Assembly (NCBI RefSeq): GCF_900105385.1
Contig: NZ_LT629772.1
Span: 2,294,001 to 2,358,000, forward strand
Direction: 5' to 3'
Length of the DNA: 64,000 nt
Source of the DNA: Microlunatus soli
GTDB lineage: Bacteria > Actinomycetota > Actinomycetes > Propionibacteriales > Propionibacteriaceae
Shown here: in pieces, positions 46,459-50,409 of the stretch
Layout of the letters: each line of letters begins with the position of its first letter
How positions within the stretch are numbered: position 1 is the first letter of the stretch
The notes under the pieces: generated by a model
What the model was told of the DNA's origin: nothing
What the model saw: the letters and a program-made list of their open reading frames with translations, nothing else
Database searches by the model: none
Program-made: the position numbers and the translations under genes

Positions 46459-48792
46459 GTGACCATCTCGACCGATCCCGCCGCGTCCGGCACCGACGCC
46501 GGCCGCGTCCGGCACCGCCGGCGGCTCGACGGGCGGACGGCCGAGTTCGGCGACTGGCCGGGTTGGTTGCCCGCCGAGATCGTCGAGTCGCTGCGGGCGA
46601 CCGGTCTGGAGCGGCCGTGGACCCACCAGGTCACCGCCGCCGAGGCCGCCTATTCCGGCAGTCACGTCGCGCTGACCACGGGTACGGCATCGGGCAAGAC
46701 GCTGGGTTACCTGATGCCGGTGCTGGCCGCGACCTACGGCGGGGTCGCGGCGACCTCCCGTGCGCCGGTCGGTGGCCGGGCCGAGCTGCGGGAGCTGATC
46801 GTCAAACCGAAACGGCCGCACACCGCGCTCTACCTGGCACCGACCAAGGCACTGGCCCATGATCAACTGCGGGTGACAGACCAGGTGGGTCTGCCGGATT
46901 GGCGGGTGGCCGCCGTCGACGGCGATTCCGAACGCCAGGAACGGGACTGGGCCCGGGAACACGCATCCTATGTGCTGACCAATCCGGACTTCGTGCACTA
47001 TTCGATGCTGCCGCGGCACGGGCGGTGGGCATCGTTCCTCTCCGCTCTGCGCTATGTGGTCATCGATGAGGCGCACCGCTACCGCGGCGTCTTCGGCAGC
47101 CACGTCGCGCAGGTGATCCGGCGGCTGCGGCGGCTGTGTGCCGCGCATGGTTCGCATCCGACGTTCATCCTCGCCTCGGCGACCGTCACCGCCGCCGAGG
47201 AGATGGTGTCGGAGCTGATCGGCTGCAGCACTGACGAGGTCACGGTCGTCGATCGGGACGCGTCTCCGCACGGTCCGGTCGAGATGATCATGTGGGACCC
47301 GGAGGCCTATCCGACCGACGAGGCGGCCGTGCTGCTCGCCGATCTGGTGACGGCGGGCAAACAGACGGTTGCCTTCATCCCGTCCCGCCGGATGGCCGAG
47401 CTGACTGCCGTACGAGCCCAGGAGCGGGCGTCACGGCTGACCGGTGCTTCCGAAGGACTGACCGTGAACCCGCCGAAGGAAGACCCGCGGATCGATTCCT
47501 ATCGCAGCGGTTACCTCGCCGCCGACCGCCGTGCTCTGGAGCGTGCGTTGCAGGATGGGTCGCTGCACGGGCTGGCGGCCACGAACGCCCTGGAGCTCGG
47601 TGTCGACGTGGCCGGGCTGGACGCAGTGATCATCTGCGGCTTCCCCGGCACCCGGTCCGCGCTCTGGCAGCAGGCCGGACGCGCCGGGCGATCCGGTCGT
47701 GAGGCAGAGGTGATCTTGATCGCGGCGAAGAACCCGCTCGACGCCTACTACTTCGATCATCCCGGGCTGCTGTTCGACGAACCGGTGGAAAAGACCGTCC
47801 TGCACGCCGACAATCCGTACGTGCTCGGTCCACATCTGGCCGCGGCTGCCCAGGAGCTGCCGCTCACCGACACCGACAAGGTCTGGTTCGGCGACTCCAT
47901 GATCAATACCCTCCGCCGGTTGGAGGCGCAAGGTGTGTTGCGGAAGCGGCCGGCAGGGTGGTTCTGGTCCCGGCCGGACCGGGCGGTCGATTCGGTGGAT
48001 CTGCGCGGCTCGGGCGGGCCGACCGTCGACATCATCGAGGACGAGAGCGGCCGGGTGCTGGGCACGGTCGATCAAGCCGCCGCCGACGGTACGGTGCACG
48101 AGGGCGCGGTGTATCTGCATCAGGGCGAGACCTATCTGGTCGACGAACTTGATCTTGAAGAGTCCGAGGCACTGGTGCACGCCGCCCGGCTCGGCTATTA
48201 CACCGAGCCGCGCGGCAGCAACGAAGTCGAGGTGGTCGCCGAGCAGTTCACCCGCCCGTTCGGCCGCGGCATCCTGCATTACGGCGATGTCGACGTGTTC
48301 TCCCAGGTGATCGGCTATCTGCGTCGGGACGAGGTGACGAGCGACGTCTGGGACGAGACACCACTCGACATGCCTGAGCGCCGGCTGCGGACCAAGGCGG
48401 TCTGGTGGACCTTCGATGCTGCAGCCCTCGATCTGTCGGCGGTCCAGCTCGGGTCGGCCGCACATGCCGCTGAGCACACCGCGATCGGGCTGCTGCCGAT
48501 GTTTGCGCCCTGTGACCGCTGGGACATCGGCGGGTTGTCCACGGTGCTGCATCCCGACACCGGGACGCTGACGGTCTTCGTCCATGACGGCCAGGCCGGC
48601 GGCGCCGGGTTCGCCGAACGTGGTTACCGGGTCGCCGACGACTGGTGGCAGGCGACCCTGGAACGGCTCCGGTCCTGCGAATGCAGCGCCGGCTGCCCGT
48701 CCTGTGTGGTCTCCCCCAAATGCGGAAATGCCAACCAGATGCTCGACAAGCAGGCTGCCATCTGGCTGCTGGAGGCGCTGCTCGTCGACTGA
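46459..48792 (+). CDS. DEAD/DEAH helicase with DUF1998 zinc domain
   Basis: 777-aa SF2 helicase of the YprA/Hrq1-like group. Walker A LTTGTASGKTLGY; DEAH box YVVIDEAHRYRG; motif III ILASATVTAAEEM; motif VI QQAGRAGRSGR. The C-terminal DUF1998 domain ends with the four-Cys zinc site CECSAGCPSCVVSPKCGN. Probably DNA repair. The GTG start is at 46459. It matches Rv3649 by position beside the tad cluster. Confidence 0.95.
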   Translation: MTISTDPAASGTDAGRVRHRRRLDGRTAEFGDWPGWLPAEIVESLRATGLERPWTHQVTAAEAAYSGSHVALTTGTASGKTLGYLMPVLAATYGGVAATSRAPVGGRAELRELIVKPKRPHTALYLAPTKALAHDQLRVTDQVGLPDWRVAAVDGDSERQERDWAREHASYVLTNPDFVHYSMLPRHGRWASFLSALRYVVIDEAHRYRGVFGSHVAQVIRRLRRLCAAHGSHPTFILASATVTAAEEMVSELIGCSTDEVTVVDRDASPHGPVEMIMWDPEAYPTDEAAVLLADLVTAGKQTVAFIPSRRMAELTAVRAQERASRLTGASEGLTVNPPKEDPRIDSYRSGYLAADRRALERALQDGSLHGLAATNALELGVDVAGLDAVIICGFPGTRSALWQQAGRAGRSGREAEVILIAAKNPLDAYYFDHPGLLFDEPVEKTVLHADNPYVLGPHLAAAAQELPLTDTDKVWFGDSMINTLRRLEAQGVLRKRPAGWFWSRPDRAVDSVDLRGSGGPTVDIIEDESGRVLGTVDQAAADGTVHEGAVYLHQGETYLVDELDLEESEALVHAARLGYYTEPRGSNEVEVVAEQFTRPFGRGILHYGDVDVFSQVIGYLRRDEVTSDVWDETPLDMPERRLRTKAVWWTFDAAALDLSAVQLGSAAHAAEHTAIGLLPMFAPCDRWDIGGLSTVLHPDTGTLTVFVHDGQAGGAGFAERGYRVADDWWQATLERLRSCECSAGCPSCVVSPKCGNANQMLDKQAAIWLLEALLVD

Positions 48793-48852: not shown

Positions 48853-50409
48853 ATGCCCGGTACGGTATGGCCGGTGACTTTCCTGCTGTTCCCGGGCCGC
48901 CATCACGTGCTGACCACCTTCCAGGCCGACTATCTGCAGTCCGTGACAGGCCCCGACGGGCAGTGCCCGGAGGCGACAGTGGTCTGGGCGGTCACGTCGG
49001 CGAACCACCACACCACCAAGCGCAACCCCGTCCCGTACGACCGCCGCGAGGCCGCGATCGAACGGTTGTCGACCCAGACCGGGCTCCGGTCGCTGGTGGT
49101 CGCGGTCCACGACGTACCGCCGACCGACCTGTTCGCCGACGCCACGGTGAAGGCTTGCGAAGAAGCACTGGGCGAGGACCTGTCGCCGGCGACCACGACG
49201 GTTGCCTGTTCGACCGCTTCGGTGGCGGCGATGTACCGCGATCTTGGCTACACCGTGCTGCCGGTCGAGGACGGTCTCGACCCGCAGCCGGCCCGACCGT
49301 GGGACGTGTTGCTGGAGATCGCCGACGGCTCCGACGTTTGGCGGAAGTCAGCGCACCCGGCGACCGTGGATGTCTTCGAGCGCTACCGGCTGGATGATCA
49401 TGTCCGCCGGTGCGTCAACGATCCGGTGATCGGCGACGACGGCGGGCTGACGCCGACTCGGGATTATCACACCTATGCCGAGGCGTTCGAGACGGCGTCG
49501 GACCGCAAATGGGAGCAGATCGCCGACTTCGTCCGGCCGGGACGGATCCTCGACATCGGCTGCGCGACGGGTGGTCTGTTGGAGCGGATCGATCGTGACC
49601 TGCGATTCCACGAATCCGACCTGCTCGGCGTCGAGGTGGCGCGACATCTGATGGCCGAATGCGAACACAAGCTCAACCAGGGCGTGTTCAGCAATCCGAA
49701 CGTCTACTTCTATCAACGCAACATGCTCGGTGACGCGATCTTCTCGCCGAACTCGATCGACACCTCGATCAGCATCGCACTGACCCACGAGATCTGGTCC
49801 TACACACCGCCGACCTCGCCTTCCAGCCGGCTCGACGCGGTCCGTCGCTTCGTGCACAACATCGCAGCCCACACCACTGCCGGCGGCGTCTGGATCAACT
49901 CCGATGTCTGCGCCCCCGACGATCCGGACCGCCAGGTCGCCCTGAGTCTCGACGATTCCGACGGCCGGAATCCCAACAGCGTCAGGGATCTCGACGGACT
50001 ACCCAGAGCAGAGGTGGCCGACCACGTCGGCGCGCTGTCAACGCGAGCGAAGTTCGATCAGTTCCAGCACGACTTCGCCCGCAACGCCGGCGTCATCATC
50101 GGCGCCGAGACCAGTGGCGCCGCGATCCTGCTCCGCCTCGGCGATGCGATGGACTTCCTGACCCGCAAGGACTACGCCGACAACTGGCTGTCGGAGTCGC
50201 ACGAGCAGTTCTGCGGACTGACCTACGCCGACTGGACCAAGATCATCTCCGAGGCAGGTCTCTCGATGGCACCGGGGTCCCATGCCTGGCGTAATGACTG
50301 GGTGATCACCAACCGCATTGCACCGGTAGCCTCCCTGGCCGACCCCGGCGGCGCCAGCATCGACTGGCCCGTCACCCACCTGCTCGCGATCGCCGAGAAG
50401 CCCCAATAG
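48853..50409 (+). CDS. Nucleotidyltransferase-like/SAM methyltransferase fusion
   Basis: 518-aa two-domain protein. Residues 1-150 resemble a nicotinamide-nucleotide adenylyltransferase-type Rossmann fold: FLLFPGRHHVLTTFQ carries the His pair expected of the nucleotide-binding H-x-G-H region, though the HxGH itself is not exact. The second half, from about residue 220, is a class I methyltransferase with RILDIGCATGGLLERI and later NDWVITNRIAP. No partner genes give a pathway. The ATG follows the hairpin directly; GTG 48874 is an alternative start. Confidence 0.75.
   Translation: MPGTVWPVTFLLFPGRHHVLTTFQADYLQSVTGPDGQCPEATVVWAVTSANHHTTKRNPVPYDRREAAIERLSTQTGLRSLVVAVHDVPPTDLFADATVKACEEALGEDLSPATTTVACSTASVAAMYRDLGYTVLPVEDGLDPQPARPWDVLLEIADGSDVWRKSAHPATVDVFERYRLDDHVRRCVNDPVIGDDGGLTPTRDYHTYAEAFETASDRKWEQIADFVRPGRILDIGCATGGLLERIDRDLRFHESDLLGVEVARHLMAECEHKLNQGVFSNPNVYFYQRNMLGDAIFSPNSIDTSISIALTHEIWSYTPPTSPSSRLDAVRRFVHNIAAHTTAGGVWINSDVCAPDDPDRQVALSLDDSDGRNPNSVRDLDGLPRAEVADHVGALSTRAKFDQFQHDFARNAGVIIGAETSGAAILLRLGDAMDFLTRKDYADNWLSESHEQFCGLTYADWTKIISEAGLSMAPGSHAWRNDWVITNRIAPVASLADPGGASIDWPVTHLLAIAEKPQ

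Follow-up and report, generated by a model that had tools for sequence, protein, structure and literature searches.

A predicted NadM-type adenylyltransferase domain, probably retired from catalysis and fused to a likely methyltransferase, in Microlunatus soli

A gene of Microlunatus soli encodes a protein in which a NadM-type NMN adenylyltransferase domain, apparently retired from catalysis, is fused to a likely active SAM-dependent methyltransferase; this architecture is well supported by the predicted structures. The gene lies in a stretch of 64,000 nucleotides, which was analysed as a whole and is referred to here as the window (Table 1). In the mechanism that we tentatively put forward, the former adenylyltransferase domain lost its catalytic ATP-handling motifs and would now serve to bind a nucleotide that bears a phosphate, most likely a pyridine nucleotide of the NMN/NAD type or a derivative. 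The presumably active C-terminal methyltransferase would then methylate the bound nucleotide or a small molecule attached to it. Pyridine-nucleotide binding is a reasonable guess from the fold, the retained residues and the nrtR linkage described below, and there is real evidence against it.

Gene and domain architecture

Comparative sequence evidence indicates that the fusion is a real gene under purifying selection, since an orthologue with 70% protein identity is present in genome G010 (the sole match among 19 other genomes of the genus) and a comparison of the two genes over 508 aligned codons shows 100 differences at first, 96 at second and 237 at third positions. The true start may be an in-frame GTG at position 48874 instead of the ATG at 48853, because the conserved block begins only at ...LLFPGRH. 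In another genome (G024, contig C1, 4921725-4923210; L008/L045), the fusion gene is apparently broken near the C-terminus, with two matches in different frames.

A full-length AlphaFold2 model was built from seven sequences (the window protein and six related loci) and had a mean pLDDT of 69. Within the N-terminal domain, ten-residue means were mostly 73-90, falling to 60 for residues 1-10, 56 for residues 51-60 and 57 for residues 141-150. A Foldseek search with this domain gave a best E-value of 1.1e-7, and all 17 matches at E ≤ 0.001 were NMNAT or NadM. According to VIA, the predicted domain superimposes on an archaeal NMN adenylyltransferase with Z 18.2 and an rmsd of 2.2 Å over 163 residues; the archaeal NMNAT/NadM structures ranked highest (Z 17-18), followed by NadM-Nudix (14-15) and NadD, NadR and PPAT (about 12-13).

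Support from sequence is weaker. A profile of 15 N-terminal domains placed the M. jannaschii NMNAT (MJ0541) at the top of a PDB search with an E-value of only 0.021, and hhalign aligned the N-domain profile with NadM-Nudix from the Bacteroidota relatives at a probability of 86 (E 5e-6). No Pfam or NCBIfam model matched the domain at its cut-off. The best NCBIfam NMNAT match (E 0.022, in two of 15 members) was below the cut-off and was equalled by an unrelated NCBIfam model (E 0.018), and in Pfam no nucleotidyltransferase was matched at E-values of up to 1. Structure prediction nonetheless supports a NadM-type nucleotidyltransferase fold.

The C-terminal domain of the window protein matches Pfam Methyltransf_25 at 28 bits against a cut-off of 27; the homologue at locus L014 has no Pfam model over cut-off. 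All 42 distinct family sequences have an intact SAM-binding motif I and keep the acidic residue that follows strand 2. Modelled alone, the domain reached a mean pLDDT of 73. Its best VIA match had Z 13.5, followed by dozens tied at 11.6-12.8, small-molecule and RNA methyltransferases alike, and the best 50 VIA matches listed are all methyltransferases, as judged by their titles. Assignment to class I SAM methyltransferases is thus supported, and we infer that the domain is likely active from the intact SAM motifs. The original prediction of an NMNAT/NadM-type domain joined to a class I methyltransferase was borne out by the Foldseek, VIA and Methyltransf_25 matches; a non-nucleotidyltransferase fold at the N-terminus would have spoken against it, and the predicted fold is that of NMNAT/NadM.

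No specific methyltransferase subfamily stands out among the fold matches. Nicotinamide N-methyltransferase appeared in Foldseek amid many matches of similar E-value and was absent from the VIA matches listed, and it was disregarded. PRK06922 (NF005379), a weak best NCBIfam match, was rejected as parent family, as it covers only the SAM-binding core. PHROGs gave a weak tRNA methyltransferase match only, and among defence-system models the methyltransferase part matched mads_2 weakly and nothing else. The C-terminal extension carries a family signature, invariant in the alignments in its longer form KDYxDNWxSExxExFC; a search for its core KDYx0-3NW among the remaining ORFs of the loci covered by that search gave no match. 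The stretch between the two domains (residues 191-212) was modelled with low confidence.

Table 1. Positions of the features discussed; coordinates are those of the window unless a locus is named
Feature	Position	Strand	Basis
Whole ORF, putative pseudo-NMNAT/methyltransferase fusion	48853..50409	+	518 aa plus stop
Predicted N-terminal NadM/NMNAT-type nucleotidyltransferase fold, residues 7-190	48871..49422	+	AlphaFold2 model; residues 8/9-190 match archaeal NMNAT at Z 17-18
T21-x-F23-Q24, at the site of the ATP-binding motif T/HxGH	48913..48924	+	TxFQ in 42/42, alignment A3
S49-R65, VTS(A/S)NHxxT(K/R)RNPx(P/A)xxxR, on SAQxSHxxxxPFTAGER of archaeal NMNAT	48997..49047	+	42/42; HMMER alignment to MJ0541; 1ej2 letters
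Helix starting P149-W150, at the place of the NadM S-x-T-x-x-R motif, without conserved Arg	49297..49323	+	Model, alignment A3, 42-sequence set
Class I SAM-dependent methyltransferase with C-terminal extension, residues 205-518	49465..50406	+	Pfam; model of domain alone; fold matches
SAM-binding motif I, D234-I-G-C-x-x-G240	49552..49572	+	D[IL]GCxxG in 39/42, DVGCGAG in other 3
Family signature K439-D-Y-x-D-N-W445	50167..50187	+	13/13 rows in each of two alignments
TTTGYGTN7ACRCAAA copies directly before nadM-Nudix	L080 11555, 11608; L082 11656, 11709; L085 8140, 8191; L113 6164, 6214; L014 3205; others		
kptA	L014 244-813; L080 13983-14531; L081 5878-6450; L082 15021-15569; L086 2312-2851; L113 2793-3317		

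Catalytic and binding residues of the N-terminal domain

Residue conservation was assessed in the 42 distinct sequences, which were collected by script from the loci of the best matches rather than from all matching genomes. The filter required PGRH, NP within 90 residues and a further 300 residues; conservation of PGRH in this set therefore reflects its selection, and TxFQ was not a requirement. All 42 sequences, the window protein included, carry TxFQ at the place of T/HxGH, and HxGH is kept in all seven true NadM controls from neighbouring genes. This register was taken from the structural match, in which residue 9 falls on residue 4 of 1m8f and residue 1 of 1f9a, so that R16 corresponds to R11 and R8 of the two archaeal enzymes and Q24 to H19. 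The hhalign register differs, aligning TxFQ with RFQ of NadM and not with HxGH, which counts against the pyridine-nucleotide reading. In E. coli NadD, replacement of the second His of the motif (H19A) leaves 0.62% of activity (PMC1249556).

The second motif, S/TxxR, is likewise not conserved: the region after the last strand reads PWxxx without a conserved Arg. A loose S/T-x2-3-R search matched seven of the 42 family rows, and the stricter NadM pattern was found in six of seven controls. Because TxFQ replaces T/HxGH throughout and the S/TxxR-type Arg is not conserved, the N-terminal domain is probably not a functioning adenylyltransferase. The original prediction had implied a working enzyme, a view that the replacement of the ATP-handling motifs across the family does not favour. 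A canonical NadD is encoded separately in the genome that holds the window, and the fusion gene would therefore be dispensable for that step.

We consider it very unlikely that the domain has remained a nucleotidyltransferase by rebuilding its active site around T21 and Q24, with the invariant H17 taking over from the lost His, so that the protein would form a dinucleotide and then methylate it. Thr is permitted at the first position of T/HxGH, H17 (of GRHH/GRHQ) is invariant in alignment A3, and the mutants of the M. thermoautotrophicus enzyme have been read, in PMC1249556, as showing an enzyme that merely positions its substrates. Against this stand the Gln in place of the second His in 42 of 42 sequences and the unconserved S/TxxR arginine.

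Two arginines of the archaeal enzymes are retained. The first-strand R16 matches the conserved archaeal active-site Arg (R11 in M. thermoautotrophicus, R8 in M. jannaschii), and R65 aligns with the Arg of PFTAGER. Other positions count against the pyridine-nucleotide reading: R57 aligns with R47 in the M. thermoautotrophicus enzyme, whereas MJ0541 has Glu there. In archaeal NMNAT, W87 stacks on nicotinamide; in the weak alignment to MJ0541 this Trp is matched by T98, an argument against an NMN pocket that has stayed the same.

Distribution and gene neighbourhoods

The fusion family is common to two phyla and patchy in both. With the Microlunatus genome included in each count, the fusion was found in 10 of 40 genomes in the sample of relatives, in three of 197 in the class sample (one of four matching genomes having been dropped as a generic methyltransferase match) and in two of 396 in the phylum sample, where 17 of 19 matching genomes were dropped for showing only the generic methyltransferase core (E 7.5e-7 or weaker). 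In the Micromonosporaceae, the family of the genome with locus L010, 57 of 150 genomes carry it; two of 59 matches were dropped on the same grounds, the seed genomes G589-G592 are counted, and fragments or split genes among the carriers include G982, G992, G1003 and G1019. In the Bacteroidota order of G594, the genome of L014, it occurs in nine of 298 genomes, G594 counted and one of ten matches dropped as generic core. A tree of 42 sequences places the ten Bacteroidota rows on one side of a branch with 100/100 support, subject to long-branch and letter-composition warnings. No relatives were found in the phages, plasmids and viral contigs searched.

Neighbours of the fusion vary among actinobacteria. 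In the window, they comprise an H+ pyrophosphatase, an MrfA-like helicase and tad genes. The helicase, an MrfA/HRQ1-like DEAD protein with an MZB zinc domain (46459-48792), lies directly upstream on the same strand with a gap of 60 bases and is possibly co-transcribed with the fusion. For the Micromonosporaceae, neighbourhoods were drawn from part of the 57 carriers (20 loci in the main set plus some others), and no conserved neighbour or biosynthetic neighbourhood was found in the loci examined. In one Micromonosporaceae genome, a radical SAM protein gene (L091, 10874-11842) lies directly upstream of the fusion. KptA co-occurred with the fusion in this family (53 of 57 carriers versus 57 of 93 non-carriers; Fisher's test, p = 9e-6), but the association was set aside because genome size and kinship were uncontrolled.

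Since the actinobacterial neighbours vary, the methyl acceptor may lie outside NAD metabolism. This agrees with a ligand-gated methyltransferase, in which the retired domain only senses NMN-, NAD- or ADP-ribose-like nucleotides and switches a methyltransferase acting on an unrelated acceptor. Such a protein would draw on the same fold and motif evidence as the reading we prefer, and it has a precedent in the NrtR family, whose proteins, according to PMC4666351, probably bind ligands through a repurposed Nudix-like domain. The low-confidence residues 191-212 show no signal route; we regard ligand gating as rather unlikely.

Two observations in actinobacteria count against a pyridine nucleotide as the ligand. 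NAMPT was found in only one of the 150 Micromonosporaceae genomes, and that genome is not a carrier of the fusion. In one genus of the same order as M. soli, a family 2 glycosyltransferase gene precedes the fusion by a few bases in all six genomes; at L045, the preceding gene was called as a tail piece of a family 2 glycosyltransferase. The same stretch also holds NeuB and GtrA genes (tested in L041). These findings would fit an N-terminal domain that binds a different nucleotide-linked substrate, joined to a sugar, a lipid or a natural product, for modification by the methyltransferase, the nrtR adjacency in Bacteroidota being incidental. The apparent loss of the stacking Trp points the same way, as does the nucleotide-sugar N-methyltransferase TylM1, one among the many tied fold matches. 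We consider such a substrate doubtful: the Micromonosporaceae loci examined share no biosynthetic neighbourhood, and nrtR adjoins the fusion in nine Bacteroidota loci. No support was found for a modified base, the other substrate that had been suggested at the outset.

In nine of the ten Bacteroidota loci, nrtR is adjacent to the fusion and divergent from it (L013 and L014 are close kin). These nrtR genes are 68-100% identical to that of L014, whose product passes the Pfam NrtR_WHD cut-off but falls short of the one set for NCBIfam NtrR. Loci with nrtR also contain nadM-Nudix (seven), NAMPT at 63-100% identity (seven) and kptA (six); in an eighth locus, NAMPT is only 37% identical. In G695, the end of contig C17 holds nadM, NAMPT and kptA, and the contig with nrtR and the fusion also ends close by. 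Nine of the 298 genomes of the order have an nrtR with 68% or more identity to that of L014, and eight of these nine carry the fusion. The tenth locus, L087, has none of these neighbours, which counts against the pyridine-nucleotide reading. The expectation that the neighbourhood would give no clue thus holds for the window's own genes but not for these relatives.

The palindrome TTTGYGTN7ACRCAAA lies before nadM in all seven loci that show nadM, often doubled. A scan of eight whole genomes gave 0 to 2 sites per genome, and a single site of the reversed pattern in one genome. Judging by its position, it is likely the operator of the nearby NrtR. The exact pattern, by which weaker sites would be missed, was absent from all nine nrtR-fusion gaps. 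That the likely operator lies before nadM and not in the shared gap is evidence against simple NrtR co-regulation of the fusion. The nrtR-nadM-NAMPT cluster is also present without the fusion (L103, L104 and L105), so the fusion is an add-on to it.

KptA, an RNA 2'-phosphotransferase that consumes NAD, is encoded in or near the NAD salvage cluster. A DUF1963 protein gene lies near nrtR and the fusion in four of ten Bacteroidota loci (L013/L014 3328-4227, L083 11679-12542 and L086 6700-7581).

Known systems and significance

The N-terminal domain shares its fold (Z 14-18) with archaeal NadM (PDB 1ej2/1m8f; MJ0541, 1f9a) and bacterial NadM-Nudix (2qjo, 2r5w), together with the GR after strand 1, the SAxxxxTxRNP stretch and the strand-helix order. 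It differs from both in having TxFQ for T/HxGH, in lacking the S/TxxR arginine and in scoring below all NMNAT model cut-offs, and from NadM-Nudix also in having a methyltransferase as its partner where that protein has the Nudix domain. Like class I SAM methyltransferases, the C-terminal domain has SAM motif I, the acidic residue after strand 2 and a Rossmann-like core, but it adds the long extension with its KDYxDNWxSExxExFC signature. The fusion resembles the members of NrtR-linked NAD salvage clusters (nrtR, nadM-Nudix, NAMPT/nadV) in its physical linkage in the Bacteroidota loci, and differs in having its own promoter region without the palindrome and in being absent from some clusters.

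Full-text literature searches returned no description of the fusion among the matches listed, with most subscription papers lying outside their coverage. The word 'methyltransferase' is absent from the main text of PMC9503650.

The retired NMNAT module that we tentatively favour, binding a probable pyridine-type nucleotide for its attached methyltransferase, could also be placed in a new branch of NAD metabolism. In that case, the domain would hand an NMN, NAD or ADP-ribose derivative to the SAM methyltransferase, and the methylated product would be a signal, a storage form, a protected cofactor or a discard product. We judge this extension unlikely at present.

In members of two phyla, the scaffold of an essential NAD enzyme appears to have been kept, its catalytic motifs discarded and a methyltransferase joined to it. 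Such N-terminal domains should not be annotated as adenylyltransferases. If the ligand is a pyridine nucleotide, the fusion would provide a direct and testable link between the SAM and NAD pools in bacteria.
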